Assembly (NCBI RefSeq): GCF_030253575.1 | Contig: NC_080560.1 | Location: 33,841,501-33,905,500, forward strand | Source: Rhododendron vialii | Taxonomy: Eukaryota; Streptophyta; Magnoliopsida; Ericales; Ericaceae | Length of the DNA: 64,000 nucleotides | Direction: 5' to 3' | Shown here: positions 15,195 through 62,698 of the stretch, one piece after another | How the letters are laid out: each line of letters starts with the position of its first letter | How positions within the stretch are numbered: position 1 is the first letter of the stretch | The notes under the pieces: generated by a model | What the model saw: only the letters and a program-made list of their open reading frames with translations | The model's database searches: none | What the model was told of the DNA's origin: nothing | Made by a program: the position numbers and the translations under genes

Positions 15195-15203
15195 TAATAT
15201 GTT

Positions 15204-15254
15204 GAGAAGTGCTACAATACACACCCTTTATTTGGGTGTGTATCATATGCACCC
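15204..15254 (+). repeat. Left terminal inverted repeat of the MULE
   Basis: Starts GAGAAGTGCTACAATACACA and continues through TATCATATGCACCC. It matches the inverted right end with a few substitutions and indels. The 9-bp duplication lies at 15195-15203. Confidence 0.85.
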
Positions 15255-15536
15255 TTTTTGATTACCATTAGATGCTTGAGAAATGATCTGGACCCTTTAA
15301 AATGTTACGATAGGTTAATAACAAAAAACTTGTTACCAGTGCAACAGGTAAACCTTGTAAATTAACCAAAATGGAAAGAAAATCCCGTCTCTCACTTTTT
15401 TCCCAACCAGCGTATCTCTTTCTTTTCCTTCGACGAAACCAGACCTATTAGTCCGCCGTTCGCCCTCCCTCATCCCAGTTCGTCAGTCGTGGTCACTCCT
15501 CCTTGTCCATCATCGTCGCTTCTCTCAGGTATGAAT

Positions 15537-15540
<4 letters not shown>

Positions 15541-15585
<45 letters not shown>
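15541..15585. repeat. (CT)n microsatellite in the MULE
   Basis: About 22 CT units, downstream of a possible 5'-leader splice donor (CTCAG then GTATGA at about 15528-15534) of the transposase gene. Confidence 0.9.
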
Positions 15586-15588
<3 letters not shown>

Positions 15589-16409
15589 CACATACATATA
15601 CATGTGTGTGTATACGCGTGTATCTGTGCATGTATTCAGAGATTTGAACGTATATTTGTTTGTGACGGAAGCCTAAACAGATTATGGGAGGTTCTAGTTG
15701 TTGGGCTACTGAATGTGTGTGCATACGTGTATATCTGTACATGGATTCAGTGATTTGGGTATAAATTTGTTTATGAAAGAAGGTTAAATAGATTTTTTGG
15801 AAGGTTCTAGTTGTCGGGTTACTGAATGCATAGAAGTTACATGTAATGCTCACAAACTATTCGATAAAATGCCAATTAGATTGACTGAGTATTGTGAAAT
15901 AATAATTGTAGAGTTCAAAATGAACAAAAAAATAGTAGTAAATTAAAAGTGAGGATTACTTGCATACAATTGTCTTCATTCAGTGTTTGCATTAATTCCT
16001 GAAAAAAAGAAAGTTTGGTTAGTTGTAAAATTGCTGGAGTTACAATTGACTGACTTTTTTGTGTTTGACATAATGCTTCTTTCAATTTTGATATTCATTC
16101 AAGTACCAAACGCACACGTGAAAACCAAATACATGTAATACATGATGGTGGTATTACTTTGGTCTATTTGGTGTCTAACCTTTTATTGGTATGTTCAAGA
16201 GGAACCAATCAAGTTGCTGCTCTATAATAGAAAACCCAAAGGGCAATAGAGTTACTGAAGTCAAATTCAATTTGTTTCAATTGGTATAGATCATGGTTAG
16301 GATAAAATTATTTGAACTGCAATAGATGAGAAACTCTCCCCCACCCAAATCATCAAAAAAGTAACCATTCTAAACATTGTCACTTGTGGGTTTTTTTTGT
16401 TTAGGTTTG

Positions 16410-18830
16410 ATGGATCAATCCTCAAGTCGTACGAGCAAAGATGTCAATGTGAAAAATGATATGAATAAATTTCCTGAAGAAGAAGATGATCTAGGAGACT
16501 CAATTGAAGATGGTTGTGTTAATGGGAAACAAGGTTTAGATTCCCAAATAGGATTAGAAGGTTTGAATATGCTCACTGCAAGGGATGTTTTCAAAATGAA
16601 GTTTGATTCTGAGGAAAATGCGCATGCTTTTTACAATGCCTATGCTAAGGTAATGGGGTTTAGCATCCGAAAGGATAGAAAAAAGGTACGTAGGGAGAAT
16701 GTGGTGGTGAGTAGAAAATGGGTATGCTCTAGGCAAGGAGTACGTGCAAAGAAATACTTGGAGCATGTTGATAGATTGAGAGCACCAAGGGCAGAAACTA
16801 GGGTTGGATGTAAAGCTGTCTTTCGTGTGCGCTATGATGTGAAAATGAGAGAATATATAGTGACTCACTTTGTAAGCGAACACAACCATCCCTTGGTCGC
16901 ACCCCACTGTGTCCCTTTTCTTTGGTCACATAGGTCTGTAACAAGTGCTGACAAAGCCCAAACAAAAGCTATGCGTAATGTCGGCATTAGCACTGGCCAG
17001 ATAATGGACCTTATGACCATTCAGTCTGGTGGTTTCGATAAGGTTGGTTTTGTTCGAAAAGATTTGCATAATACTGTTCAAGCTGACCGAAAAGTAGAAC
17101 TCAAGGATGGGGATGCAGAGGGTATCTTGGGATACTTATCTGCTAAAGCTCTAGACGACCCAATGTTTTTTTACAAGTATGACGTCGATCATGAAAATTG
17201 TTTAGACAAACTGTTTTGGGCTGATTCAAGGTCTCGCCTAGACTATGTTGCATTCGGTGATGTACTTGTTTTTGACACTACTTATAGGACAAATGCATAC
17301 AAAAAGCCATTTGTAATGCTTTGCGGCGTGAGTAACCATTACATGTCAATCATATTTGGTTGTGCTCTATTACCAAATGAGACTACAGAAACATACATGT
17401 GGGTTTTAGAAACATTAATGGAGGCCATGGATGGTAAAAAACCCATCTCAGTGGTGACAGATGGTGATAAAGCTATGAGTCAAGCCATCATAACTGTCAT
17501 TCCAAACGCTAAGCATCGCTTGTGTACTTGGCATCTACAACGAAATGCTGTGTCAAATGTCCACAAACCCAAATTTCATGAGGATTTCAAGCGGTTGAAG
17601 TCATTAGAATGTGATAGGGATGAGTTTGACAAGGCTTGGGCTGTCTTGGTCAAACAATACAATATTGAAAACAATAGTTGGGTGGTAGAGGTCTATCGCA
17701 ATCGTCATAAGTGGGCTGAGTCTTATCTTCGTGGACATTTCTTTGCCGGTATGAGCAGCAGTCAGCGTTGCGAAGGCATGCACGCTTATTTTAATAGGTT
17801 CCTAAAAGTGAGGCTTAGACTATATGAATTTGTTTGGCATTATGATAGGGCCATTGCTCGAATGCGTGTTAATGAGGCAGCCGCGGAGGGTGTAACAGAG
17901 AACAGTTTCCCGGTGTTGACAACGCAATTAAAGAAACTTGAGAAAAATGCAGCAGAGTTGTATACAAGGAAGATTTTTTTAAAGTTTCGGGCGGAAATGG
18001 AGCTAGAGGCCAAGTTTTATGTGAAGCAACAACTTGAAGAGGAGGATCATTATGTCTATATTCTAGAACAGTACGCAACTGAAAATAAGTGGAGAGTTGA
18101 GTTTCATCCATTCGATGGCAGCATAAAATGCCCTTGCATGAAACTTGAGTCATTTGGGATACCTTGCTGCCACATAATTACTGTCATGAAATTTCAACAA
18201 CTTGTATCTATCCCTATGAGTTGTGTGGTTCAGAGGTGGACTAGGAGTGCTAGGTCAAGCAATCCACAACCTAGTCTCACCAAAATTCCCAACCTACTGA
18301 CACAAACCACACGATATGGCATATTGAGCTCATCATTCAATTTATTGTCCTATTATGCGTCGCACACGGACAAAGATTTTATGGAGGCGAGGGAAGCAGG
18401 TTTCCAAATGATGTCCGAGATGAAGAAGCGCTGGGAACTGAGAAATGCGGATAAGGGTGAGGAAAAAAATAGTGCCACCAAACTATTTGGGATTCGGGAC
18501 CCCAAGGTAGTCAAGACAAAAGGCAATCCTGGGGGACCCTCTTCTGCCAGTAAACTCCCCACAGCAAGAAAATGTGGGAACTGCAGGTGTGGTGTTTTAG
18601 TAGCAAAGATTATGATGCTTTATGTCACTACTTGAGCAGTTTTTTTATTTTATTTTATAGCTTCACTACTTCTAAGTGCAAAGCTCTTTGTTTGGTAACG
18701 CAGGAGCATTGGCCACACGAAGCGAACTTGTAAAAAAGTAAAAGCGAAGGAGAGGGAGGGTTGCGAAGAGCACTTTTCTGCATTCACAAATCCAGAGTTA
18801 TTCCCCCATCAGGATGAAGACGGACGTTGA
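16410..18830 (+). CDS. FAR1-type MULE transposase
   Basis: A 767-residue protein from two exons, 16410-18586 and 18704-18830. Domains: acidic N-terminus; FAR1 DNA-binding zinc-finger domain (about 60-160, FYNAYAKVMGFSIRKD ... HNHPL); MULE/DDE transposase core with Asp288 (VFDTTY), Asp351 (VTDGDKAM) and Glu455 (SSQRCEGMHAYF); SWIM zinc finger (about 573-595, CPCMKLESFGIPCCH). The second exon completes a C-terminal CCHC zinc knuckle, CGNCRSIGHTKRTC, which the unspliced frame would lose. The start ATG at 16410 follows a splice-acceptor-like TTTGTTTAG, suggesting a 5'-leader intron. There is no frameshift or stop. Its place inside MULE ends with a 9-bp duplication shows it is the element's own transposase rather than a domesticated FHY3/FAR1 regulator, although the domain order is shared. 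Mechanism inferred from the family: cut-and-paste DNA transposition in the nucleus. Confidence 0.92.
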
Positions 18831-19253
18831 CAAAACAGGGCAAGGAACTAGCAATGCATAAGTCCGTAGTCGTTGATCTAAGTTGGTTTGAATTGGAGGA
18901 ACTTTAGGCAGAATTTTAGGGAACTAAGCCTTAACAATTTTGGGAACTGAGTTTCTTTATCTTTCTTTCTTTCTTTCTTTTTTTTTCATTTTTTGTGTTT
19001 CATTTAGAATCATTTTCCCATGTTCAATGTTTCAGTGGATGCTAGTGGTACTTGGTTTCAATACTAGTCTTAAAAGTCTTGCTACTCATGGGTATATAAG
19101 CCTTTAACAATTTGATTATCTTATGTGTACGGTTCTGTGATTATATGAATGTTTGTTTAATAGCCCTCTTGGTGGCATTGGATGTGTAGTTAAATTTTTT
19201 GGCTAGTAAATTCTTTTTTTGCTTTGTTCAGTTCATCACACAGGTAATCAAAG

Positions 19254-20393
19254 ATGCCAACCAAAAGAAAGGCAATAGGTAGTAAGAAGAAGCAGAAGAA
19301 GATTAAAACAATTGATGCCCCACTTGACCTAGGAAGGTTCAGATCAAGGGCTGTGACTGTTGAGAGGTTTGTTGACATGGATAAATTGGCTCGGACAGGT
19401 ATTCCTAATTTGATCATAGACTCCAACCTTGAGAACTTAATGAAACAAAAAGGACAGGCAAATGTGGACATGGTCCGTGAGTTCTTCCACGGAATTATTA
19501 GACCGTATGACACAATCAACCACAAGATGGTGTCTGTTTTGAGGGGGGTGAAGGTGGAGTTTTCAGCGGATTCTATTGCAGAGTTCTTAAAGATTGATCG
19601 CCCTAACCCGTATGACGAAAGGCAATATCCCTTCTTGTCCGGCGTCAGGCTCCCAGATAAGCTTGAAATTGCGAAGGTGTTGTACATCAACGGGATTAAA
19701 CCAATAGATGAGTGGTGTGTGCGTTTTCTCAAACCAGATGTCTCGGTGCTCCACGTCATGGTGTGGTACAATCTGGATCCTAGAGGAGTCAAGAATGCAT
19801 TCAACTTGGAGAAAGCAAGATTGTTATACAAGATAATTAAGAAGGACCCTATTGATGTGGGAAAGATTATTTGGAAGGTTGTGGAGGTGGCTTCCAAGGC
19901 AGAGCATGCAACTGCTGCACTACCTTATGGTCTACTGATAACGGAAATTTTGCTTGAGAATGATGTGCCTGTTCGAGATGGTATAGAGGGAGATAGCTGG
20001 AAGCCTCAGATGAATGCAATAGCACGTGGCACCCTGGGTAAGACACAGGGCCAGAGTAGGAAACATCGTGCAGGCACTGATCCCGCTTCTTTGGAGAGCA
20101 TTGCAGCGCGATTGGATGAGGCACTAGCCTTGATAAAAAAAATGCAGTCAGACCACAAGAAGGATATGAACAAGTTCAAGGCAGAGGTGAAGGAGATGCG
20201 AAAAGCCCTCCTTCACTGTGAAAATGATTCAAGCACTGATGAGAGCGAAGATGGAGCAGAGAGTGAAGATGGGACTGGGGGCAAAAATGAGGCGGAGAGT
20301 GATGATGGGACCGAGAAGGAAGAAGATGGAACCGAGGGTGAATGTGGAGATGATAGCGAAGATACAGATAACAATGAAGATGGAGATGAATAA
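19254..20393 (+). CDS. Plant transposon-associated protein (putative plant transposon protein family)
   Basis: A 379-residue intronless ORF with a clear ATG at 19254, 420 bp after the transposase stop. It starts with a basic, nuclear-localisation-like stretch (PTKRKAIGSKKKQKKIK). A globular domain of about 230 residues (VDMDKLARTGIPNLI ... VREFFHGIIRP ... FSADSIAEFLKIDRPNPY) resembles the uncharacterised domain often annotated as putative plant transposon protein. It ends with a short coiled coil (about 280-320) and a strongly acidic tail of ESEDG-type repeats. No catalytic motif recognised. Being inside the MULE on the same strand as the transposase, it may be an accessory protein, but this is inference; the family has no established function known to me. 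Family assignment is from pattern memory and moderately sure. Confidence 0.75.
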   Translation: MPTKRKAIGSKKKQKKIKTIDAPLDLGRFRSRAVTVERFVDMDKLARTGIPNLIIDSNLENLMKQKGQANVDMVREFFHGIIRPYDTINHKMVSVLRGVKVEFSADSIAEFLKIDRPNPYDERQYPFLSGVRLPDKLEIAKVLYINGIKPIDEWCVRFLKPDVSVLHVMVWYNLDPRGVKNAFNLEKARLLYKIIKKDPIDVGKIIWKVVEVASKAEHATAALPYGLLITEILLENDVPVRDGIEGDSWKPQMNAIARGTLGKTQGQSRKHRAGTDPASLESIAARLDEALALIKKMQSDHKKDMNKFKAEVKEMRKALLHCENDSSTDESEDGAESEDGTGGKNEAESDDGTEKEEDGTEGECGDDSEDTDNNEDGDE

Positions 20394-22060
20394 ACGGATA
20401 CAAATTGTTGAACATCTAAGTTTTTTTATTATTCCTTTATGTTTTCAATGTTTTTGCAACCTTCTTTTGGATGGTTTAGGTATTTTGATCATTTTATAGG
20501 TCCTGTTAAGATGCAGTTTAGATGTTATTCCTGCCACTTTTTGTAAAGTTCTTCCTTGCTTGGATAGGTTTTCTGCAGTTTAGATGTCTTTCTAGTTATT
20601 TTTCTCCTGGCAATAACCTGTTAAGAATGGATCTGGTGTCTTAAAGTTCTATTTGTGAAGTTGGTTTTCTGCAGTTTAGAAATTCCAAGGGTTCAACCCC
20701 CATGTGCGAGTTATTGTTTCCACTGTGTATTTGGCATTTTTGCTTTCTTGCAGCTGCCAAAAGTTGCAGAATGCAAAATGAAAAGCACCCATTTCAATCC
20801 CTTTAATTTACGCTTTGCATGTCCTTTCCGTTGTTATTTAATACGTTTTGTGTTCGAATTCGTGCTAGCAGGTCTTGTAGACCATTGGAGGTGAAAAGTA
20901 GCAAATTGGAGGCTGCTAGATGAGACAAGGAGCAAAGAGTGAAAACCGAGAAGAAAAGGAGTCAAAACTGAGTTGCAGCGAGCTTGGTCCGGACCAACGT
21001 CGCTCTGGTCCAGACTAGAGCTCCACGATCACTTTCCCAGCTCGCAGCACTGCTGGTCTGGACGACCAATCTCTGGTCCAAACCAGAACCTCCTGAGCAA
21101 AATCCCAGTTCACAACAGCCTTGGTTTGGACGAGCTGTGCCTTGGTCCAGACCATCGGGACCGACGTTCTCCGTTTATTTTTAAGCGTTTTATGTAATAT
21201 TTAGGGCCCTAAGTATAAATACTCGCTAGAAACATTATTTTAGGCTATCTTATGTTTTGGCAACGGGAGAGAGAGGCAAGAATAACGTTAATAGAGATTT
21301 CTCCATGTTCTCCATGATTTCTCCATGTTCGCCATGGATTTGGGGTGTCCTTGACTTGGTATTTTGAGCCCAAGTAAAGCTCTTTTTCTGCTGCGTAGAG
21401 GTCGACGTTCGTGAATGACGCGGGGTGCCCTCCAGGAATCGGTTGTCCTACCCCAAGCTTGTTGTCTTCCTCTGTGACTCTGTGGACTAGCATGTGGGGG
21501 ATTTGATTGCACAGTGAGCAGCTCTTCCTGTCATGAACAAGATCTAAAGCAAATTTAGAGTCTTCTTTCTGTCATGTTTTTTTTTTGTTTTCTGGGTTCT
21601 GATTCCCGAAAACGTTGTATATTTTTGCTTGACAGAATCGTATGTGAAAAATGATGGAAAATCTTGGAGTGCTTTCAAACATTTCAATTTATCTAATTTC
21701 AGAAACGAAAAATTATTGCTTTGCACTTGGACCAATCTCGGCAATAATCACCAGTTCATGACACATCCAATATAGTTGGGCTAACTACAGACATAAACGT
21801 TTTGGCCTGTAAACAAATCACAATGAACTTGGAGCACCACGTGCCAATGCCACCCAGCAATTACCTACCAAAAAACATAACTGACCATTTACAATTTAAG
21901 TTTTTGCTACATAACATTCTGACATTGTGCATAACGAATGGTCCCTCATAGATGTCTTCGCCAAACAACCTCGTAGATGTCTTTGCCAAACAAACATTGA
22001 ACTTCACTCCAGAATTAAATTGTCCCTGACCAAAATTATATATTGTTAGTGTGATTACAT
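20394..22060. other. Non-coding interior of the MULE between convergent genes
   Basis: Contains several GCAGTTTAGA words (about 20510-20680) after the ORF. A GC-richer block at 20970-21180 has four variants of a GGTCCAGAC / GGTCTGGAC motif, followed by TATAAATACT at about 21216. The block could be a piece of a regulatory region or another insertion. No protein-coding ORF I would accept. Confidence 0.4.
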
Positions 22061-22084
22061 TATCGGGACTAAGGAATATAATGT

Positions 22085-25000
22085 GGAGGATACCCACCTT
22101 AGCTTATACTTTTCAATTCTAACAGAAATCTCTGGCCACTTCAAGTTATTTGGATCTCTCACCAAGTCAACCGGCAACCTTAGCCTTTCTAGAGGATCAA
22201 ACTATTAAACATTCAAAATAAAGATTTAACTATTTAAGCATTCATGACTATGAACAATTTTATTTTTACAAATATCTCACCCCTTGTACACCATTTGGCA
22301 ATGGGATGCCCTGCATATGCTTTATGACAAACATCCCGCAATCATATCTTCATGAACATTGATGTAGGTTATACGTTAGCAAAAATCATAAGCAATAGGC
22401 CTACTTAAAAAATGAACAAGGAGCATTATCAATACGAGTTATCTTGGATAGGAGGATCTTCAAGTGTAATCCAATCAAACATAGTCACGTCAGCAACATA
22501 AAAGTGCCCATATTTTGTTTGAAGCATCAAATGCAGAGCATGAACCTGTATGTGGATGCCTAGTTAGACAAAAAACCCAAGGATACTAGTTAAAATAAAT
22601 AATGTAATAAATCACTTACCAGTTTTATTGCCATTTGTTTTCGTTCACTGTTATCTCTGCAAGTTGGCAGGGAGTCAAGTAGATATATCTTTTGGTATAC
22701 CATATCCAACTTTAAACAGAACCAATGTGTGTTCGCATCGTTCATTGGAATATATATCTTCCAATCACAAGACAAACAAAGAAGGGTCATGCATGATAAT
22801 AAGGGGGGAAAAAAACTCATTTTGATTGATAGATTACCTCCTGACAAGCATGAATTTCTCCAGTATATTTAGTCTCACCGAAATAGCACTGTGCTAAAGG
22901 TGGGTACTCATCTTCATTGACTTCGTCATTAATAATCCTTTGCTACATACATATGTGAAAGTGATAAACCAATACCTTCAATGCCAAAATGGTAAACAAC
23001 CTCTGAAAAATAACTCACCGAAATGTAAGTTGGCAAGTACCAAGTTGTGTGACACTTATCTTGATGTCTCTTCTTCTGCACACTTGTTAGTTGCACTGCC
23101 ACAAGAGTAATAATCTACATAGCATGCAAAGACATATTGATAAGGTGTAGGAAACAATATTGTTAAGTGGAATTTCATATGCAAACATGAAAAAGTAAAC
23201 TCGTACAGAACTGTCTAACCAAACTCCCGGCTTTAATGAACACAAATCTCGACGGGTAGCAAGATCTATCGCAAAACTCACAATAGTTTCACTGCAGCAA
23301 TTATCAATCAGGAATAAAGAAAAATTGTAATGGCACATCCAAGATTCTGCATAAATAATAACATATTTTACCTGAAGGAGAGGTCTCGATCTAGTTCTTT
23401 ATCAAAATAATATGCCACAAGGACCTTCTCATCTGATGATAGAGGATGTGGAGGTATTGGCTTTGGCTGTGGAAGTGACTTCTTAAAATAAGGTGGAACA
23501 AAACAAAGGCAAAACAAGGTTAAGTAAATTCTATTAAGGGGCTCATAGTGGGTAATAACATCAAGAAAGAATTAACCTTAGGAATGGAGGGACCATTAAA
23601 TGTTGCACAAAGTAAATCCAGTGCAGTGCTAATCTGATAAGAAATTGCAATGAGCAGCGAGTAAGTACCAACAAACATCATTTCTAATCATTTCAAATTA
23701 AACATCACTAACAAATGTACATAGTTTACCTTTTGGCATTTGACGTCGTCTGAATCAAGCTCAGATTCTTCATCCATATTTACCTTCGTTATGGTAGCCT
23801 TTTTATTGCCTTTCATCCTTTTCATCCCGATATCCAAAGGGATATAAGGTGAGCACAAATATTGACTTCGCTTCAGCTCATTGGAAGGTCGAGTTTGTGG
23901 ACAACCAATACCATTTTGAGAAAATGAATCAAATTCGACAAGTCGTGAAGAACACCTTCGAAGTTGTTTGGTTGGCTTTTTAATGCGTGGATTTTTTCGA
24001 CTTGCAATTGGATCAACAATTTCAACATCTACACCGGCAGAAATTGTATTCAAATCCGTCATTCCAGAAGTTCTTGCTCTTTTCAGACCTTGGGCGGGTT
24101 GCTTTTTAACGAGGGACTTCACATTCACTTCCTCCACCGGTTGGAATGGAAGACAACTTTCATTAGTGTCGATGGATATAGTGACATCAGGCTTTTTTTT
24201 GGGCGCAAGGTTCACTTCTACCGGTTGGAGTGAAACAGTTTCTTTTCCAGAAACTTTATTGACCATTTGAGCTAAAAGTGACTTCATCCCAACGAGCTCA
24301 ATCTCCACTTTTGCCATCCGATCGCCATCACAATGATTTTCAATGAATATCATCTTCATTTCTGTCATCTCTTTCTCAACTTTTGTCATCCGATTGTCGT
24401 CATAACGATATTGATCGAAGCTTTTCTTGAACTCAGCCAGCTCAAACTCAACTTTTGCTATCCGACTATCATTACAGATGCATGTGGTCTTTGGAGATGG
24501 TTGCTTATGTTCTTCAAAACCTTTGTCATTTGAAGATTCTTGGTTCTGTTCTTCAAAATTTGTGTTCTCAGGAGATGCTTGGTTCTGTTTTTCAATATGG
24601 GTGAACTTCATATACACCTAATTTTCAAAATACCATAAACAAGTTAGAATGGAAAATCAACAACCTACAAAGTGAAAAACCTACAAACCAAAATTGAACT
24701 AAGAGTGAAATACCTTCTTGTTTTGGTAATCTCCAAGCAGACTCATAGTACCACTTATTTCTACATCCCCCCAATGAGCCAAGGAAGGAGTTGATCGTGG
24801 ACAAGGTGTGCATGTCTCCTTCGTCGTAACATGATCTAAGAAAAACAACTACCAAACAAGTAGAAATTTAGTGTTATTATCATAACTCATAACGATTTAT
24901 ACAATGAAACTAATTATACTCTACAAACACAGAGTTGGAAAAGATTTTAGTACCATACCACTAAAAGAAGCAAGCATCCGTTTGCCCTTAGATGACCTTT

Positions 25001-26150
25001 CTGCTTGCATTTTCTAACGCTGCCAATAAGGAAGTCAAGGGTTAGCTTTGCCCAATTACACTCCTTCATGGCTTCGACATTTTTAATAGCATGGAGATAG
25101 GATTTCTTGAGCGCAGGTTTTGTTGTTGGACATAAGAACGCACCTAACACGTAGAGGACAAATTTCATCTTGAAATCATCTCCAACACTTTTTGTTTCCT
25201 TTAGATAGTCTTTCAATCCCTTCAAAGGAATAGAGCCTTGAACTACTCCAACCATTTTACAGAGATCCATAAATCCTTCCCTTGACCCTTTGAGCTGTAC
25301 GTCCTTACCCTCACATTGTATACCCAATACATTATGAACCTCAACCGGTGTAAGTAGAAGTTGTTGTCCATGAACATCCATTGAAGAACTTTCGGGATCG
25401 AAGTTTTTAATTAACCATCGAGTCAAGATGTGATCTTGTTTCATACATCTCAACCCCAGTAGGCCACCCAATCCAATCTCCCTAATAGCCTCACTTTGTT
25501 CAAGGCTTAATTTGCTTATTATCTTCACAATTGAACGTAGGGATATGCGGGCTTGAATATAATCCTGAACAAAAACACAATAAAAAGAACACTTCAAAGA
25601 AAAAATTGACTCAACGGGTAACGTGTTATAACAAATCCTTGCAAAAAAATTACCTTTTTATGTTTTGGAGTTGGTGAACCTTGAACCTTCTTACGTTCAT
25701 CATGATCAAAACTTTCATCATCACCCAGAGGGTTACCTCCTTGTATATCCATTGACCCACCAGTCATGGCCCGATATGGACCATCTACTTTATGTTCTGC
25801 ACTAGTGTCATTTTCAATAGTGTTATTTTCATAATCAAACATTGTGGGACAGTGAATGTATACATATATGACCTCATTCTTAGCAAACATTGCAAACATA
25901 TCTCTCATAGCTACATCAGAATTTATCTTAATCATTGTTCCATTCTCATATATTGGTGGAAGCTTCAAGCTTTTGATATATAGGAGAGTTGTCAGGACAC
26001 CCAATTTCATTTAAAACATCCAAACATTCGAAATAAGACAACTTATCCAGGTCTACTCAGAGATGCCCACCTCTCCACCATTGTAATAACTATTATTCAT
26101 TACTTCACCCCATAATGAAGTTGTAAAGTAACATAACCATTAGGAGTCAT
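22085..26150 (-). CDS. Ulp1-type cysteine protease gene carried by the MULE (N-terminus probably broken)
   Basis: A minus-strand multi-exon gene. In order: 25654-26010 (acidic region), 24964-25564 (SLRSIVKIISKLSLEQSEAI ... RWLIKNFDPES, a domain common in these transposon proteins), about 24700-24838, 23731-24617 (three KVEFELAEFKKSF-like coiled-coil repeats, then a basic region with KNPRIKKPTK), and short exons from 23637 to 22060. The last encode a C48 protease: ATRRDLCSLKPGVWLDS (about 23250), catalytic His in DANTHWFCLKL (about 22735), Asp in IYLLDSLP (about 22690), Cys in DCGMFVIKHMQG (about 22320). Ulp1 enzymes cleave SUMO conjugates. All three catalytic residues are visible. Upstream of 26010 a PB1-like MULE segment (LDKLSYFECLDVLNEIGC) lies in other frames, so at least two frame changes separate it. 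Exon limits are approximate; several GT-AG sites fit. Confidence 0.72.
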
Positions 26151-27170
26151 GTGTGTACTGACATGCACAAAATTAGTCTGTAAAATATACGTAAAATTTG
26201 AGAAAAATTTATCAAACATTAGTCTGTATTCGTGTACTGATACACAGGGAGAGAGAAGAGAGAGAGACCTTCGTTGAACGGAATCACTGATTCCGATGAT
26301 GATGGACGAAGCAAACCAATATCGTGGGTTAGAGTTATAGTCTACCCGACAAATCTGGGAATAGGGCAGATCAGTTGATGACTGTTGAGGGAAACGGCGA
26401 GGCGAACTCCGACGAGGCAAATTCTCCGTAGAGTTCTTCGTCTGATGAAAATGGCGCTGCAAGGCAGCGAGTGCTCCTGCCGTTAGCGTATTTCGGGGGA
26501 GCGTTCACCCGACGACAATTTTGTCTGCAACGAAAAGATTTATTTTAATTTTTTCTTAAGGAGTGCGAGGGGTTACCATAACTCAGTGCACTTGAGGTTT
26601 AAATTTTAAGTAACAGTTGGGCCATAAGTTTGGGCTGAAAGAAAAATTAGGCCCTATTTTATTTTTGAGAATTAATTTATGTTAAAAATAATTATTTTAA
26701 TTTTTAAAAAATTTGAAGCTAAAATTATTTCAAGTGAAAATAATTTACTTCTTTAAAATAGGTTCTCGATAATTACTAAAGGAAAAAGATATTATCATTA
26801 TCATAATCTAATAAAAAGTCAAGGCATTTTTTACACGATTTTTAAAGTGTTTCATATTTGTAGCCATTTTTTTTGAATTTTTTTGAAATACTATGATGTT
26901 TAATATTTTTCACAATATTTTTAATTGCATAGTAAACTTTCACATAAATAGTCTAACTAAAAGGAATAGAGAAGTCGATCATCTGTATTAATAAGTAGGA
27001 AACACTAACAAAAAAGTTAATATGGGTGATCAAAAGAGTGATGGTGACGAGATAAATTTACCAATACATTTTAGGTTATGTGTAAAAGACAATAATATTT
27101 AGGCTGTGCTATTTATTTTTTGGTCAATAGAACTACTAATGTTTTGTGAATTAGTGCAACCATCCGAATT
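26151..27170. other. MULE interior, probable promoter side of the Ulp1-type gene
   Basis: A plausible first ATG for the Ulp1-type gene is at 26150 (minus strand). Further right the DNA is very AT-rich with no coding pattern. Confidence 0.4.
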
Positions 27171-27174
27171 ACAA

Positions 27175-27690
27175 ATAACTAATACTCGTATTTGATAATG
27201 TAATCGATTACAAGAGTTATCAATACCAATCAATTACGTAATTGAAACCGCAGAGAAATATAATCTATCATGTAATCAGTTATTTGTGTTATTCAGAACA
27301 ATTGATTTTTCAATCTATTGCAATGTTGTTTTTAACTTATTTCGCAATTGATTAGAGAACTTACTGAGGCCCATCAATTAGCAAATTGATTGAGTAATAG
27401 ACTTCACATTGTTATCCAATCGTACTCAATTCAATTACAAAATTGATTAGATTGTCTAATCGATTACATAATTGAACATAATTGAATTGATTACATATTC
27501 GATTATGATGTCCAATCGAATATGTAATCAATTACTATATATTTGATTATAATGTCTAATCAATTGAAAAATCAATTATAAAGTCTAATCGATTATGGAA
27601 TTGAACATTCACATAATAGATTACATATTTGATTAACTACCGTTAAAAAAAAAATTTGATTGAGTAATTGATTGCACAATTGATTTTAGA
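27175..27690. repeat. Subterminal AT-rich short-repeat block of the MULE
   Basis: About 500 bp composed largely of variants of TAATCGATTACA, AATTGATTA and their inverses, repeated a dozen or more times. It lies just inside the GTTACGA repeat array. Confidence 0.75.
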
Positions 27691-27714
27691 AAAGTTATGA
27701 AATATTAATAGACT

Positions 27715-27905
27715 AAAATGTTACGATTCCGTAGTGAAAATGTTACGAACTGAAAATGTTACGATTCTAAAAATGTAACGAATCTGTTGCTAAAAAGTTA
27801 CGATTCATTCGTAAAAGTTACGATATACACTAAAAGGTTATGAATCAAAAGTTACGAATTTTTGGTATAAAAGTTACGATAAGCCTAAAATGTTATGAAT
27901 GACCG
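27715..27905. repeat. Subterminal GTTACGA repeat array of the MULE
   Basis: About ten spaced copies of AAA(A/T)GTTACGA or one-base variants in 190 bp, ending about 100 bp from the right end. A single matching AAAATGTTACGA occurs near the left end at about 15300. Repeated subterminal motifs of this kind are often transposase-binding sites; binding here is inferred only. Confidence 0.75.
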
Positions 27906-27951
27906 GTTCAGCAGGTAATTTTTAATGAGGTGGCACAATATGGACCACACA

Positions 27952-28002
27952 ATAGGTGCATATGATATGCACCTTAAAGGGGTGTGTATTGAAGATTTCT
28001 CC
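27952..28002 (-). repeat. Right terminal inverted repeat of the MULE
   Basis: Reading from 28001 on the minus strand: GAGAAATCTTCAATACACAC, then CATATCATATGCACC. It pairs with 15204-15254. The duplicated target TAATATGTT follows at 28003-28011. Confidence 0.85.
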
Positions 28003-28015
28003 TAATATGTTAGGC

Positions 28016-28218
28016 AAAAATGCTACTTGCACAACCGTTGTGTTGGTTGTGTGTGTATTTGGACGGTCTAGATTTTAAAAAGACCCTTCCAAGAAAAAGT
28101 TGAACTTTTATGGGGAAGAGTTTGAACGAATCCTGACCATTTATTACAGCAATGGACGGCTAGAGATTAGTTGTGTGTTGTGTTTTACACAACCGTTGTG
28201 TGTGTAGCACTTTTGCTA
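28016..28218. mobile_element. Short MITE abutting the MULE
   Basis: Inverted ends: AATGCTACTTGCACAACCGT on the left and, on the other strand, AAGTGCTACACACACAACGG on the right. The 7-bp GTTAGGC occurs on both sides (28009-28015 and 28219-28225), overlapping the MULE target duplication. No ORF. Confidence 0.7.
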
Positions 28219-28239
28219 GTTAGGCGGCCATGCAAACAG

Positions 28240-30609: not shown

Positions 30610-32775
30610 TGTAAAATTCTGGAAGTTCTTAAACATTTTATTCATCTTTGATCACTATATATACAGAGTACAAAAGAATCAAATCCCCTAAGTCATGGGA
30701 TTATGCAAGATTACAGCTAGCATGATTACAGAATGCACATGGACATATTGACCATGAGGTGCTAAAATCATGGGCTGAAATATCTTCAGTCAAGGATATG
30801 ACTGAAATGCGGATATGACTGAAATGTGCTTTCCTAATACTCCCCCTCAAGTTGGAGCATGAGGATTGATCATATTCTTCTCTTCCCATTGTGTTTTTCA
30901 GGACCGACGCACGGGGACGATGATTGGATGGGGTAAAGCACATGGCGGATTATACATCTTTGAACAAGATGATGAGCATTTTCCTTTCACCAGTTTAGTC
31001 CAAAAGCCTTCTTTTGATCTTTGGCATTGGCGTCTTGGTCATCCTTCTGCTGCTCGCTTGCGCATTTTAGCAAAGTTGCAATCTGCAATTTCTTACCAGG
31101 ATTGCTTATGTTCCATTTGTCCCCTTTCCAAGCAAACTCGATTGCCATTTCCTAGTAGTTATATTAAATCTGTTGCTCTATTTGATCTCATTCATTGTGA
31201 TTTATGGGGTGGTTACCATACACCTTCTTTGATTGGTGCTCACTACTTCTTAAGCGTGGTTGACGATTTTAGTAGATGTACTTGGGTATTTCTAATGCGT
31301 GCTAAATCTGAGGCAAAACGATTTTTATGTGATTTCATTGTCATGGTCAGAACCCAATTCAACAAAACAGTGAAATTCATTCGTTCAGACAATGGTTCGG
31401 AATTCATTTTCAATGAAGTCCAAAAATTCCTTCAGGAAAATGGCATCCTTCATCAACGTAGTTGTGTTGGAACACCTCAACAAAATGGAGTGGTTGAACG
31501 CAAAAATAGACATTTACTTGAAGTCGCTCGGTCCTTACGATTTCAAGCAAATCTTCCACTTAAGTTTTGGGGTGATTGTGTTCTAACAGCTACTTACTTG
31601 ATCAATAGAATTCCTACACCGGTCTTGTCTGGAAAATCTCCTTATGAAGTTCTGTTTGGCACTATGCCCAAATACTCTCATCTTCGTGTATTTGGTTGCT
31701 TATGCTTTGCTCACAATATTCATTATAGTCACAAGTTCGATGCCCGTGCTCGAAAGTGTATATTTATTGGATATCCATTTGGACAAAAGGGTTACCGCTT
31801 ATACGATCTTGAAAATGGGAAAACCTTTACAAGTCGGGATGTCACATTTCATGAAACTGTTTTTCCATTTTATATTCACTCAGCACCATCTGAATCCCAT
31901 CCAGTCATTCCCGTACCTATTCTTGAAACCGTTGATTCTCCAGTGTCATCTATAGCATCTCCGAATTCCACTGTTTCACCCATGTTGACCAATCAGTCCA
32001 CAGAGACCAATATATCTCCGCAAAATGATACGGCACCTCCCATTCGTCAATCCACTCGAGTTCGTCAAGTTCCAGCCTATTTACGTGATTACGAATGCTC
32101 TACTGCCATGTTGCCAACCCCTCCAAGGAAGTCCAGTGCACAGGTATCACCCGGTTCTCCCATTCCTTTGTCCAATTATCTCAATTACTCTAAATTCTCT
32201 ACTGCACATATGTCCTTCATAGCAGCCCTTTCTTTAGAAGAGGAACCTACTTCTTTTACCATGGCTATGAAACATGCTCATTGGAGGGATGCTATGGCAA
32301 TTGAAATTAAAGCCTTGGAGGACAATGATACTTGGGTTTTGACTAATCTTCCTCCAGGAAAAACACCAATTGGGTGTAAATGGGTATTCAAAATCAAACG
32401 TCACTCCGATGGAACCATAGAGCGTTATAAGGCACGTCTTGTTGCCAAAGGTTACACCCAACAAGAAGGCCTTGATTATCATGATACTTTCGCTCCTGTG
32501 GCTAAGTTAACAACCCTCCGTTGCTTACTCGCTATAGCTGCTATCAAGCATTGGTCTTTGCACCAACTTGATGTGCACAATGCATTTTTACATGGCGACC
32601 TCAACGAAGAAATTTTTATGAGCTTACCACCAGGCTTTCATCGTAAGGGGGAGACTCGAGTTTGTCACCTTAATAAATCTCTGTATGGTTTAAAGCAAGC
32701 TTCCCGTCAATGGTTTGCAAAAATTTCGTCTGCCCTCCTTGAGGCCGGATATGACTGAAATGTGCTTTCCTAATA
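30610..32775 (-). mobile_element. Ty1/copia element with internally inverted body and truncated 5' LTR
   Basis: A 230-bp LTR reading on the minus strand starts TATTAGGAAAGC (30839) and ends TTTTACA (30610). The purine tract TTGAGGGGGAG adjoins its start (30840-30850), so this is the 3' LTR. The far end (32746-32775) carries only the outer 30 bp of the other LTR. CTGTC flanks both ends (30605-30609 and 32776-32780), a 5-bp LTR-element target duplication. The coding body between about 30888 and 32746 reads on the plus strand, opposite to the LTRs. Confidence 0.8.
30888..32758 (+). pseudogene. Copia polyprotein fragment (GAG-pre-integrase, integrase, partial reverse transcriptase)
   Basis: One open frame of about 620 residues without stops. 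Order: GAG-pre-integrase with the zinc-binding part (WHWRLGHPSAARL ... CSICPLSKQTRLPF), integrase core with the D,D,E residues in IHCDLWGG, IRSDNGSEF and QQNGVVERKN, the FIGYPFGQKGYRLYD region, then reverse transcriptase (YKARLVAKGYTQQEG, VHNAFLHGDLNEE, LYGLKQASRQWF). It is cut off before the YVDD box, running into LTR-derived sequence where the frame ends at TGA. gag, protease and RNase H are missing, so it is not functional. Its orientation is opposite to the LTR and purine tract at its left. Confidence 0.85.
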
Positions 32776-43500: not shown

Positions 43501-44854
43501 TTTGATTTCTCAGCCACATACGTCGGTGTCGGGATGATCTGCCCTTACATGGTGAATATATCACTGCTAATTGGAGCTATTATCTCATGGGGAATCATGT
43601 GGCCGCATATCGCTACCAAGGCAGGCGACTGGTACAGTGCTGATTTACCTCCAAGCAGCCTTCATGGCATGCAAGGATACCGGGTATGATATTAATTGTA
43701 CTACTATTTTGATTTTCTACTTGTATGTTTGATGATCCTTTTTGTTCTACAACTAACACCATCATTACATACAGTAGTGGCTATATTTTCATGATTTGTT
43801 TGGTTTTGAACAGGTTTTTGTCGCTATTGCCACGATCCTCGGTGATGGTCTTTTTCATTTCATATACATGCTGATAGTAACAGCGCGCAATTTCAAAGCC
43901 CAGAAATCAGGCGAGGAGGAATCCGAGTCAATTGTCGATTACGACGAACAGAAGAGAACGGAATATTTCTTGAAAGATCAGATCCCAAACACAGTCGCGA
44001 TTGGAGGGTATGTTGTGCTCGCTGCAATATCCATTGGCGTTGTACCGGTCATTTTCCCCCAGTTGAAGTGGTATCACATATTCGTCGCTTACATGATTGC
44101 ACCGGTTCTGGCCTTCTGCAACGCGTACGGGTGTGGTCTCACTGACTGGTCCCTGGCCTCCAATTATGGCAAAATCGCTATCATTATCTTCAGTTCCTGG
44201 GTTGGGCTCGGACATGGAGGAATCATTGCTGGACTCGCTTCATGCGGTGTTATGATGAGCATCGTATCTACAGCTTCTGATCTGATGCAAGATTTCAAGA
44301 CCGGGTATCTGACACTTGCATCTCCTCGTTCAATGTTCGTTAGCCAAGTATTGGGAACCGCGATGGGTTGCGTAATGTCACCACTGGTCTTTTGGTTCTT
44401 CTACAAGGCATACGCCGTGGGTGACCCAGATGGCTCATACCCTGCACCCTACTCCCTAATGTACCGAGGAATCGCCCTTCTTGGAGTGGAGGGAATTTCT
44501 ACCCTTCCAAAACACTGCCTTGCACTTGCCATCGGATTCTTTGCCGGTGCCATTGTGGTAAACATCATCACCGCGCTACTACAGAAGTTTGAGACCAAAT
44601 GGAAGATCTACAGGTTTATTCCGAGCCCGATGTGCATGGCGATTCCTTTCTACCTCGGAGGTTACTTTGCCATTGACATGTGCGTGGGGAGTTTGATCCT
44701 TTTCGTGTGGCAGAGGGTGAACAAGAAGAAGGCAAACGACTTTGCGCCTGCTGTGGCTTCTGGTATGATCTGCGGGGAGTCATTGTGGGGAGTCCCGGCG
44801 GCAATCATGTCTCTGGCTGGCCTAAAAGCTCCGATATGCATGAAGTTTTGGTAG
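40501..44854 (+). CDS. YSL7: Yellow-stripe-like oligopeptide/metal-chelate transporter (YSL5/7/8 clade)
   Basis: Membrane protein of the OPT family that imports metal-nicotianamine complexes or small peptides; YSL7-clade members transport short peptides rather than clearly metals. Six exons: 40501-40903, 41841-42004, 42378-42475, 42700-42834, 43494-43683, 43814-44854, all GT-AG, giving about 676 residues. Hallmarks: [146 protein letters not shown], ending [10 protein letters not shown]. About 14 hydrophobic segments. The usual GG after GIAF reads SG. A second in-frame ATG at residue 31 (MAMTMEHAF) is an alternative start. Complete and apparently functional. Confidence 0.94.
41380..41545 (+). 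repeat. Minisatellite in YSL intron 1
   Basis: Repeats of TTTTAAGAAACCTTTTTGTT and TTCTTAAACTTAGGAAAATT in about 2.5 units of roughly 65 bp, with the inner 20-bp piece itself duplicated. Confidence 0.85.
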
Positions 44855-58288: not shown

Positions 58289-61200
58289 CTATTCGGTAGA
58301 CTTGAAAGGGGAGCCTTGATTGCTGTTGGAGTCCACCCTCCATAGGTCCTGAACCTGAGCTGCAAACTGCAAGTTCCAGAGCACATCCTCCACAGTAGGC
58401 CTATCAGTTGGTTCATTGGAAAGACACCTGACACAAATCTCCATCACAGTTTTTAGTGAATCATCAGAACACTCCTTGTGGATCGCTGGATCAACGATGC
58501 TTCTCCGAGCTACGTCATCATCTGTCGTTAAGCTTACTTGTAACTGGAAAAAGAGCAAACATTGCAGGATTAGGAATGAACACTCGTTCCTTCACTCTCC
58601 TACTAAAGGTACCGAGGAACCACAAGATAATCTGGTGTAGGAATTCATGTTAAAAGCAAAAGTCTTACGAGATCCTTAGCAGTGGTAATGGAACTTCGGC
58701 ACATGATAACTCTTCCAACGATGATTTCGAGCAAAATTATGCCCATGTCATATACATCGTTCTTGTCACCATTCGCTGTGCCCCTGTAAAGTTTCAGAAA
58801 ACACTTTAACAAAGAATTGAAAGGAAATACTTTTGGAATAATGGAGCAAAGTTGTCGAGTGGGAAAGCAAGCCTAGTCAAGAAAGAAACCGCTCACGTGT
58901 TCCGCTCTTTCGGTCCAGTGTGTACAGCTCCACTACATACCTAAGAAAGTATAAAGGAGTACGCAACGGTTAACCAGGGGCTTGTAACTGTAAACTGAAA
59001 AGATTATATCACGTAAAGGAGCAAAACAATAGTTTCCTTCTGGTAGTACCTGGATCCGGTTTTCAGCTAACAAAGGAAGGTTATAGTTGTTTATCTTCAC
59101 ATGGAGTTCATGATCCAGCAGAACATCGGTTATCTTCAAATCGTTTGAAAACACACCAGGCACTATTCCTGTATGAAGAAACTGAATACCCCTTGCAACT
59201 CCGATTGCAGCTGCTATCCTTTGTGTCCAAGTGAACTTGTGTCCTGAAACTACCTCTGTCATATGGACTGTTAAATGAGGATTACCAAGCATACAGGTAA
59301 AGGAATCATAGCTGGACCATTAGTTATGTATCAACGTTCCAACAAAAGATACTTTTATGCATTCAAACCCGGGTTCTGCAGCTTTGAGTCCCGGTAACTC
59401 ACAGTTACCGACAGCTTCTTCTATTGGTTAAGAACAACTCTTAAGATTGTAATAAGGAGATGCCTAATATGGACCCATTTTCCGGCTACTTCGAAGCAAC
59501 ATTAAACAGGTCCTATGTCTAGTACTACTATTAATGGGGAAATGAGGCAGTGAAAAAGAAAAAAAGGTGATGGTAGGCATGGTACATGACACTCTGAAGG
59601 ACAACCAGGCAACGGTTAGGGGACACTATTATCTAACCAAAAGTTGGTATTTCCCTGAAACGAATAATCGGAAAGAAAATAAATCTAAGCGACTCATTTA
59701 CCAGAAATGCAGCTTCTAAGTGTCCCATTGGGCACAAATTCCTGAACCAGAAATGTTGTGCTGACGCTTGAATCATCTGGGTAGCACTCAAAGCTATGGC
59801 CAACAAAACTAACAAGGTGGCGGTGTCTAAGTCTTGAAATTAATTCAATTTGGTGTCTGTAGGACTGGATCCCATGCCTCTTTCTCATTTTCAAGCTTCT
59901 AATAGCGACGAGAGTTCCATCTGTGAGTATCCCTTTGTGAACCTGATTCAAGAACAAAGGCAAGACATGTTTATGCGTTTGCATATGTAAGTATAGAAGC
60001 TATATACATACAGTGTAATAAGTGAGCTGAATATGCTACTCCGAAAATAATTTTGTGAGAACTATCATGTGAGGGAAATAGTGCAGAATTCATTTAACCG
60101 AAGTATGCGTTATAGGCAGGAAAACAAAAGAAGAAGAAAGAAACAATACAAAAGAAACAAACTGGGAAAGGCAACTGCATATACATGAGACGAGCATGGA
60201 TGAAGTGAGTTGATCAAAATATTTATTTCATTCTTGGGTTTCATAAGTTGGATATGCAAAATTGATCAAATATATTATCTAAACACTACCATTGCAGTTT
60301 GCACCCTGTCAAGATGGTGGAGTTTAGGGTTTAGGGTTCAAGTTCACCATCACAAGTAAATATAATTCGTGTTAGGACTGTTTAAAAATGAAAACGAGAA
60401 CAGGCGTTGAAAGATTATAACAAAACAAAAAAAAAGTGGGACGTGCTAGTCGAAAACATTTTAGCCCAAATCATACCTTACCCTGAGATCCTTCGCCGAT
60501 GAAATTTAACGAGCTAAAGTTACTGGTAGCCTCCTTAAGCTCCTCCAGATAAAAAGTTCGATAAGGAGGGAGTCCAAGTGCTCCAAGCTTCATCGTCTCC
60601 GATATGTACCCTGCTAGCAAGATAGAGTCCTTTTTATATGAACAGAAGCAGGAATACTTTGCACTGCCATGCATGAAAGTACAGGAGTAAGGAAAGCAAT
60701 GGAGCCAATTTTGTCTCCCTTAAGTGGTTTTCCTACACTATTGAGTTGCCGCAGTTGGAATTTGATGGTTCTGAAGAATCTAAACCAAAGTTAATTTTTG
60801 CAAGATAATCGACCAAATTATAAGTTTACGGTTCTTATCTGATAGAATCGAGCTTTTGTCATTCTGATGTCGACTATGAAAACTAGTCGATCAATATGAC
60901 ATGCATAACTGCAACAAAATAACTTAGCTGCCTAATGCAAGGAAATGGAATTCCAAGAGAGTTTTCATAAGCTGAAAGATAACGGTCATGGATACTACAA
61001 AATCCGTGAGTTTCGTATGTCATATCCAATACCATTTTGGTTAGTGCACAAATTAACGAGGAAATTCGGAAATCCCGAGAGTAAATTCTAGGGTGATGCC
61101 GCAAAAATCTACACTCACCGTTGTTGCGTTATCACAAGAGAGTCTATTCAGAGCAAATACACAGTAATGAATTGGGCTCCCTGGAATTTCCCAGCAATGC

Positions 61201-62698
61201 TAACTATGCAAAGCAGGGCCTTAATCCCTAAGCATATTAGAGAAGAACAAAAGTAAATCCTCCATTTCAGAGAGGAAAGAGAAATATGGATCTTACTTGC
61301 ATCTGAAAGCATCTTCATAGTGTACGCAGGTGGAACCTTTTCTATTATTAGTCTTGCTTGAGGTGTTTTCACCGTTTGTTTCGCGTATACTTTTCTCATA
61401 CCCAAGAAAAGCACAACACAAAGTGCAATTCCACCAAAAATCCCTCCTACTGAACTTGATGCCAAAACTGATCTCTTGATCGATTTTCGCTCCCGCTCAT
61501 GGGGGGTAATTTTCACGGCCAGTGCTTCAATGCGGCAAAACGAATACGGGTGCTGCTCTTGAGCACTACTCTGTGACAAGCAATTTCCAGTATACTGGAC
61601 AACCCTTGTACTAGAATTGGACTGTAAGCATCTGGGCAACTCTCCGGTCAAATAATTCGACGACAAGTTTACAAAAGCAAGTCTAGCATTGCAGGAAGTG
61701 TTTCCATAAAGCACTCCGGTGAATTTGTTGCCTGAAATATCGAGATAGGAAAGCGAAGGTAGTGACAGCAACTGGGCCAGAAATGGTCCAGTAAGCCCAT
61801 TGGAAGAGATATCCAGCTGCTGGAGTCGATAACAGGAGCTTATTTCTTCCGGTATGCCAAAGCTAAACTTGTTCTTTCTAAGGACCAGAATCAACAAGTT
61901 TGTGTGCAGTAGTTTTGGAAAATGGGGCCCAAGTTCATTATATCCCACATCAAGAACTTGAAGATTTGTCAAGTTCTGGAGATTAGGGACTTCTCCAGAC
62001 AAACGATTCATCGAAAGCAAAAGAACACGGAGATTTTCCATCCTTGTGAAAGAAAATGGAATAGGCCCACTAAGTGAATTGTTGCCTAAACTCAAAACAG
62101 CAAGCAATGGCAGTGAAACAAGCCAACCAGGAATCCGACCGGTGAAGTTGTTGTGATCAAGTATGAGTGTTTGGAGGTTGCTCAAAGATGACAACTCTTG
62201 AGGGAGAGGGCCAGAAAAGTAATTTGAGCTCATGTTGAGAATCTCAAGTGAAGACAGTCTCCCAATACTGGCAGGCAATGGACCCCATAAGCCTAAACAA
62301 ACTAAAGAGAGGACTTTCAAGCTGGGGAGGGTGGAAAGAGTGGAGAAGAAAGAATCAGAGGAGAAACCACTCTGAGGCACCATTGTTGTCTGAGGAAGCC
62401 AACAGTTATCACTGATGATATGCAGCTGGGTTAGGTCACCCCCATAGCATACTAGTGTTAGAGATGGGTTTGGTTCAGTGTTGCAAAAATCTGTGGTTTG
62501 GTTCCAGGTGCTCAGGACTTGTGGGTAGTTTAGTAACTGTTGGATTTCGGAAAGGACATGGGATTGGGAAGATTGTAGCTGGTCTGAGTCAGGGATTGAA
62601 ACCACAACCATGAACAGGAGGAAGAAGAAGAAGAAGAGAAGGAGATTTAGTGGATGGTACTGAAATGGTTTTGCCATTAGCACTCTGGATTGAAGCAC
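58289..62698 (-). CDS. LRR receptor-like protein with inactive kinase domain (At3g03770 type)
   Basis: Seven exons in transcript order: 62698-61297, 60610-60477, 59942-59702, 59243-59050, 58940-58897, 58783-58669, 58543-58289, all GT-AG, giving about 794 residues. The signal peptide follows a second ATG at residue 8 (MAKPFQYHPLNLLLFFFFF), the likely true start at 62677. About ten leucine-rich repeats (LEILNMSSNYFSGPLPQELS, LQTLILDHNNFTGRIPGWLV) precede a transmembrane helix near 410-435. The kinase-like domain starts at YRTFYLEELKEATSNFSSLN and GEGSQGKVHKG. Catalytic residues are missing: the VAIK lysine is Arg (VAIRSLK), HRD is replaced by FSNDLKITDVLLD, and DFG by INNYNLP. This loss is typical of the subfamily, so it is a pseudokinase by design, not decay. 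Role inferred: plasma-membrane signalling partner of active kinases. Confidence 0.93.

Follow-up and report, generated by a model that had tools for sequence, protein, structure and literature searches.

The window analysed here is a 64,000-nucleotide stretch of the Rhododendron vialii genome, part of contig 4 in a 13-contig, 533-Mb genome, and positions 15204-28002 of it hold a Mutator-like element (MULE) of 12,799 bp that carries three genes. The element is bracketed by a perfect 9-bp duplication, TAATATGTT, at 15195-15203 and 28003-28011, in keeping with the typically 9-bp target duplication of MULEs, and it terminates in imperfect inverted repeats, about 50 bp long, that match at ~80% by cross-match, with one 26-nt pair at 81%. 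An earlier first-pass annotation of this DNA had described both the duplication and the diverged ends correctly. A transposase gene (ORF1) is followed on the same strand by a second open reading frame (ORF2), and a convergent gene on the opposite strand has an Ulp1-type (C48) protease domain preceded by a region resembling the plant mobile domain (PMD) and DUF1985. Near the right end lies an array of GTTAYGA heptamers that was absent from the first-pass annotation. The features, from left to right, are as follows.

15195..15203, unstranded: left 9-bp target-site duplication, TAATATGTT
15204..15253, plus: left terminal inverted repeat, ~80% match to right end, length approximate
15304..15310, plus: lone GTTACGA motif of the left end, at element position ~100
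16377..18586, plus: transposase exon 1 as listed (first ATG 16410), with FAR1, MULE, weak SWIM and DDE-type residues read from the sequence
18704..18830, plus: putative last transposase exon, by inferred splicing, with CCHC knuckle CGNCRSIGHTKRTC
19254..20393, plus: ORF2, 379 aa, PF20167 (Transposase_32) at residues 58-239, acidic tail
22100..22201, minus: protease gene, C48 exon h, C-terminal part
22281..22347, minus: protease gene, C48 exon g, catalytic Cys (YDCGMFV)
22436..22545, minus: protease gene, C48 exon f, Gln (IQDNS)
22620..22769, minus: protease gene, C48 exon e, His (NTHW) and Asp (LLDS), upstream boundary approximate
23691..24617, minus: protease gene, long linker frame with imperfect 39-nt repeats, exon limits approximate
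24950..25597, minus: protease gene, open frame with PMD/DUF1985-like exon, below both Pfam cut-offs
25597..26139, minus: protease gene, N-terminal region, PB1-like stretch over three frames
27694..27898, plus: array of 10 GTTAYGA heptamers in a single orientation
27953..28002, minus: right terminal inverted repeat, length approximate
28003..28011, unstranded: right 9-bp target-site duplication, TAATATGTT

Judged by its domains, ORF1 is a FAR1/Jittery-type transposase: the MULE/DDE domain (PF10551, 7.2e-27) makes the element a MULE, and the FAR1 domain at the N terminus (PF03101, 4.4e-22, residues 85-174) places it in the Jittery/FAR1 group. The first-pass annotation had also credited the open transposase with SWIM and CCHC residues, and this part needs amending. 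The SWIM match is weak (0.092), and the CCHC knuckle CGNCRSIGHTKRTC falls outside the listed 752-aa ORF1, which reads into a predicted GT-AG intron at 18587-18703, and joins the transposase only once that intron is removed. The spliced product would measure 778 aa from 16377 or 767 aa from the first ATG at 16410.

The C48 domain of the convergent gene is spread over at least four minus-strand exons (e to h, positions set from consensus splice sites), which when joined score 1.3e-15 against PF02902. Its His, Asp and Cys, all claimed at first pass, lie in register with those of yeast Ulp1 (1euv, alignment E 0.015), as does the Gln. Upstream of this gene, at 27200-27690, dense AATYGATT/TAATCGAT repeats occur in both orientations. 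Between the gene and ORF2, at 20870-21500, there is a stretch resembling a long terminal repeat (LTR), with a TATA-box-like sequence and GGTCCGGAC-type repeats; a solo LTR would account for it, as would an old insertion.

Copies of the element and the age of its gene pair

Three observations bear on whether these genes belong together. First, a second full copy lies on the minus strand of another chromosome (C13, 27485933-27499076; 13,144 bp). It contains all three genes, is 99.6% identical to the window element across 7.9 and 4.9 kb, and is flanked by a 9-bp duplication, TATAAACAT, that differs from that of the window element. Because this copy holds all three genes and has a duplication of its own, the layout is more than a chance arrangement; the earlier proposal that a FAR1-type transposase and an Ulp1-type gene move as one MULE is borne out, the suggested genome search for further long copies with both ends having returned one with the same gene content. 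The refuting condition given at first pass, that no other copy would have both ends and these three genes, thus fails. The two copies differ by 39 substitutions and six indels, and their DUF1985-like frames are identical. At 39 substitutions per 12.8 kb the divergence would correspond to 0.1-0.4 million years, under assumed rates of 4e-9 to 1.3e-8 only. One indel reflects 356 bp inserted into the C13 copy at the position matching window 23132; the insertion has CACTACTAGAAA ends, sits between coding frames of the protease gene and resembles what we take to be a small CACTA-type non-autonomous element.

Second, the best 40 left ends (of 902 candidates) and best 40 right ends (of 643 candidates) gave 27 same-strand pairs spanning 1.4 to 13.1 kb, 2 of full length and 25 shorter, with 13 ends unpaired on each side. 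Duplications were checked at 19 other places (the C13 copy and 18 loci). Both ends were present at 16 of these, with a perfect 9-bp duplication at 2 (C13 and L022), an 8/9 match by eye at 6 and an unclear result at 8; the other three lacked one end in the stretch examined. Copies shorter than 2.5 kb retain ~160-270 bp of the left end and ~1.3-1.6 kb of the right, some with internal gaps. From its structure, the window element looks like a recently moved plant transposon. It probably belongs to a MULE family of the Jittery/FAR1 type, characterised by terminal inverted repeats and 9-bp duplications, in which it would be the potentially autonomous member.

Third, the pairing of transposase and protease gene recurs among diverged relatives. 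Genome-wide there were 61 transposase matches, of which 55 were used (the six dropped were extra pieces and deletion-derivative fragments), and 132 DUF1985-like matches, 43 of the top 49 being compared first and the remaining 89 afterwards. Among the 28 transposases at ≥47% identity, a set that includes both full copies and some mutual close copies, a DUF1985-like match lies within 31 kb of 23, the exon being downstream and on the opposite strand in 23/23 cases, and five have none within 40 kb; at ≤34% identity, none of the 132 comes within 40 kb of any of the 27 transposases. The relative at C13:21234707 has the C48 exons in the order of the window element, and some of them were found at C9:3657015. 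On this recurrence, the transposase/protease pair is old. The word 'composite' in the first-pass annotation, taken as recently assembled, does not fit a pair found in 23/28 closer matches, nor an ORF2 that four diverged relatives carry in the corresponding position.

ORF2 and the PF20167 family

ORF2 is the 379-residue, acidic-tailed frame noted at first pass, and it matches PF20167 at 3.6e-19 and 69.8 bits, above the curated cut-off of 45. With 108 of 268 candidates scored, full matches occurred in the two full copies only and a C-terminal piece in two deletion derivatives. Diverged matches lie 3′ of four transposases (C1:30401276, C5:14650431, C2:37246317 and C1:32560393) that are 47-54% identical to that of the window element; these ORF2s are on the transposase strand, 0.8-1.4 kb downstream, 28-37% identical to ORF2 and contain stops. 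After the Pfam domain, ORF2 and its four MULE relatives have close forms of a GK(S/T)(E/Q)GQS(K/R)xHR stretch. At C2:37246317 all three genes are arranged as in the window element; the third gene is 30 kb off at C5:14650431, pieces of it lie 85-87 kb off at C1:32560393, and no DUF1985-like match was found within 40 kb of C1:30401276. ORF2 was not found in the DNA of the relatives C13:21234707 and C9:3657015.

In a transposase tree of relatives from the source genome alone, ORF2 is present in 5 of the 20 ingroup rows, and a single clade of ORF2-bearing transposases was rejected by the approximately unbiased (AU) test (p 1.7e-60). Since these five rows do not form one clade, there have been losses or more than one gain; the matching place and the shared stretch favour a single origin with losses, two gains being the alternative. 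ORF2 appears older than the window element, yet non-universal among its relatives. Its recent capture from a nested retrotransposon is disfavoured by the same-strand ORF2 relatives 0.8-1.4 kb downstream of four diverged transposases.

PF20167 is common in the source genome, with at least 150 matches. At two other inspected loci (L060, 3429-4757; L061, 3098-4399), PF20167 ORFs with acidic tails are preceded, ~2 kb upstream, by a Copia pol frame (RVT_2). They have the same Pfam domain as ORF2, but are only 23-25% identical to it and are without its GK(S/T)(E/Q)GQS(K/R)xHR stretch; they resemble the extra envelope-position ORF of Sirevirus-type elements. PF20167 is also reported in a sunflower Athila element (PMC11728184). 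No published report of PF20167 inside a MULE was found in a partially covered literature, which tests the point weakly.

Heptamer arrays and their possible reader

Outside the right-end array, the element has GTTAYGA once forward, at the left end, and 51 kb of the window outside the element hold 6 on both strands. The right 450 bp contain 5-14 forward and 0 reverse motifs in 17/17 copies with both ends (one family, and so non-independent), each with one further GTTAYGA 95-104 bp from the left end; in first-order simulations (n = 5,000) the count was at most 2. A related family, family 2, comprises two copies (C1:39943402 and C1:5638320) whose transposase is 55% identical to that of the window element. 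Their right 600 bp hold 17 and 18 forward GTTATRC, 0 reverse and 0 GTTAYGA; conversely, GTTATRC is absent from the right 600 bp of the window element. Family 2 also has a different inverted repeat, which one of its two copies showed at the left end (85% over 103 bp). Separately, the C9 relative (L039, 6155-6892) has a 110-bp × 6.7 tandem array, rich in same-orientation GTAAG, between two convergent genes, and C2:37257000-37262000 showed a GATGGTG run only.

Sequence-specific escape from silencing by a plant transposon has been worked out for VANC in Arabidopsis. VANC21 binds YAGTATTAY motifs, which are densely packed in non-coding regions, all pointing one way and often in tandem repeats, and it causes methylation loss; VANC proteins carry DUF1985, and the targets of VANC6 bear different motifs (PMC5735166). 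VANC genes that include an Ulp1 domain, termed KIU, are said to direct hypomethylation of their own kind, and the role of the Ulp1 domain in MULEs is given as unknown (PMC13317346). Dense, family-specific arrays of short motifs in non-coding DNA, a feature of VANC/KIU elements, were found here as GTTAYGA and, in family 2, as GTTATRC. By analogy, the sequence points to a VANC/KIU-like route, with a DUF1985-type protein reading motifs of its own element, rather than to the SUMO processing that the first-pass annotation suggested for transposition or silencing escape, and the heptamer array may be a candidate address tag aiding escape from host silencing.

Under this explanation, the transposase would move the element and its many short deletion derivatives, and the convergent gene would encode a VANC/KIU-like protein in which a PMD/DUF1985-type domain is joined to an Ulp1-type protease. 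The most likely target of that protein is the same-orientation GTTAYGA array near the right end, and it would clear host silencing marks from copies of its own family; more speculatively, its protease domain may act at array sites by taking SUMO or a related tag off silencing proteins. ORF2 would serve as an accessory protein whose family also occurs in LTR retrotransposons; by gene order only, it is provisionally matched with the unassigned second-gene role of VANB in Hiun. Taken whole (an autonomous MULE, a VANC/KIU-like protein recognising the array, self anti-silencing and an accessory ORF2), this is our best explanation, and we put it forward tentatively, with somewhat less than even confidence. 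That a FAR1/Jittery MULE lineage has self-recognising anti-silencing in which a DUF1985-Ulp1 protein reads family-specific heptamers, with PF20167 as a third component, we regard as doubtful and on balance unlikely.

Several observations weigh against our best explanation. The frame at 25597-24950 is below threshold for both PMD (9.4e-7, 28.7 bits, cut-off 34.9) and DUF1985 (PF09331, 5.7e-4, 20.3 bits, cut-off 35.1), and of two relatives scanned, one gives 24.1 bits for DUF1985 and the other a weak PMD match with no DUF1985. The sequence at ~26150-25850, which we take to be PB1-like, lies in three frames, and the protease gene seems to shift frame in its N-terminal part, where the C13 copy shows no indel relative to the window element; the N terminus may be decayed or differently spliced. 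No such transposase lies within 40 kb of 20 of the 43 DUF1985-like matches, nine of these 20 being weak (28-29% identity). Homology of ORF2 with the DUF1985-like exon found no support, profile comparison giving no relationship (0.2%), and 4/4 ORF2 differences between the full copies alter the protein. The element also has five reverse GTTAYGA motifs outside the array, and the left flanks of family 2 carry reverse GTTATRC (2 in one copy, 1 in the other), so a purely one-way array in family 2 holds for the right end only; these reverse motifs make the mechanism and self-recognition slightly less likely. Finally, not every lineage showed a motif array: 3.6 kb upstream of the exon at C13:21234707 and 2.6 kb at C9:3657015, two relatives in which the element ends are unplaced, revealed no right-flank array.

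The main rival to binding of the array by the DUF1985-Ulp1 protein is binding by the transposase. Ac and Spm have subterminal transposase-binding sites, and the GTTAYGA array could be of this kind, with the DUF1985/Ulp1 gene acting otherwise, for example by a deSUMOylation that stabilises the transposase; we think this quite possible, if not what we would expect. It would account for the persistence of the array in short derivatives without ORFs, which keep both ends, for the motif near the left end in 17/17 copies and for the reverse orientation of the family 2 left-flank motif, as inverted repeats would have. However, the marked asymmetry (5-14 motifs on the right, 1 on the left) and the single orientation in the family of the window element misfit a site needed equally by both ends, and array length differs among copies.

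The Ulp1-type gene and ORF2 could also be captured passengers without a role in transposition, which seems to us improbable. The grapevine authors prefer repeated ULP transduplication, or else frequent loss (PMC2528002), and the sparse distribution of ORF2 in the tree, the amino-acid changes that make up its four differences between full copies and the broken-up N-terminal frame of the protease gene agree with passenger status. By contrast, 23/23 DUF1985-like exons sit at the same place and in the same orientation across divergent transposases, the C48 active site is retained, and ORF2 lies at the matching place in five element lineages. A non-mobile host gene cluster or an assembly artefact, for which it might be said that FAR1-type proteins occur as host genes too (PMC2528002), is refuted because the two near-identical copies, on different chromosomes, have different 9-bp duplications, and the 27 end pairs also speak against it.

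Around the element, a ~200-bp sequence with inverted ends ACAACCGTTGTGT lies just beyond the right duplication (28012-28222), with GTTAGGC on both sides by eye, and looks like a small miniature inverted-repeat transposable element inserted beside it. Translations read by eye at 432-1679, 30866-32758, 43796-44854 and 61148-62698 include Copia-like pol pieces, a multi-pass transporter-like ORF of oligopeptide-transporter type and a leucine-rich-repeat receptor-like ORF.

Relation to known systems

Several parts of this layout are already in print, namely Jittery-like MULEs with ULP, three-gene KI-MULEs and the antisense PMD of MuDR-group MULEs (PMC2528002, PMC13317346, PMC6446971). No published report of Jittery elements joined with VANC-like arrays was found, the literature being covered in part and the point weakly tested. 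The window element would add a further MULE lineage in which an Ulp1-type active site is retained and a candidate recognition array is present; the related family with its changed motif supplies DNA probes for a binding test, and the PF20167 protein connects accessory genes of DNA transposons and LTR retrotransposons.

Jittery of maize, like the window element, has an N-terminal FAR1 domain, a MULE/DDE core, inverted repeats and 9-bp duplications, with a transposase of 798 aa against 767-778 aa here (PMC9569675, PMC6446971). Its inverted repeats are ~200 bp long, whereas those of the window element are ~50 bp and imperfect (PMC9569675, PMC6446971). The Jittery group, group 36 of the MULE census, shares FAR1 and MULE/DDE with the window element, but the plant Jittery sub-group has one ORF in that census and the window element three (PMC6446971). 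Jittery-like MULEs with a ULP sequence downstream of the transposase are known from melon and grapevine, the orientation of ULP not being stated in the available text; Jitvine-1 and Jitvine-2 of grapevine (11.9 and 14.4 kb) are large, as is the window element, and the portion of the paper at hand tabulates no inverted-repeat or duplication length and mentions no PF20167 ORF or motif array (PMC2528002).

In most MuDR-group MULEs the plant mobile domain is antisense, as the PMD-like exon is here, but their transposase belongs to another group (PMC6446971). KI-MULE/KAONASHI (KIU) of Arabidopsis likewise has three genes, with the Ulp1-type gene reverse to the transposase; these elements are non-TIR (without terminal inverted repeats) and have mudrA, in contrast to the inverted repeats, 9-bp duplication and FAR1/Jittery-type transposase found here (PMC13317346, PMC2528002). 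Given the inverted repeats and the transposase type, classification of the window element as a KI-MULE was rejected.

VANDAL21/Hiun, with VANA, VANB and VANC, resembles the window element in its three genes, in the DUF1985 of VANC, which the below-cut-off DUF1985-like exon here recalls, and in dense same-orientation arrays of non-coding DNA whose motifs change from one related family to another (PMC5735166). It differs in its transposase group and in its motif, YAGTATTAY rather than GTTAYGA, and a term search of the available text found no Ulp1, whereas the protease gene here has an Ulp1-type domain (PMC5735166); VANDALs also have short degenerate ends, unlike the window element (PMC6446971). 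Should a FAR1/Jittery lineage indeed have such a self-recognising system, address-tag anti-silencing of the VANC type would be neither limited to VANDALs nor tied to non-TIR ends, and it could be coupled to de-SUMOylation.

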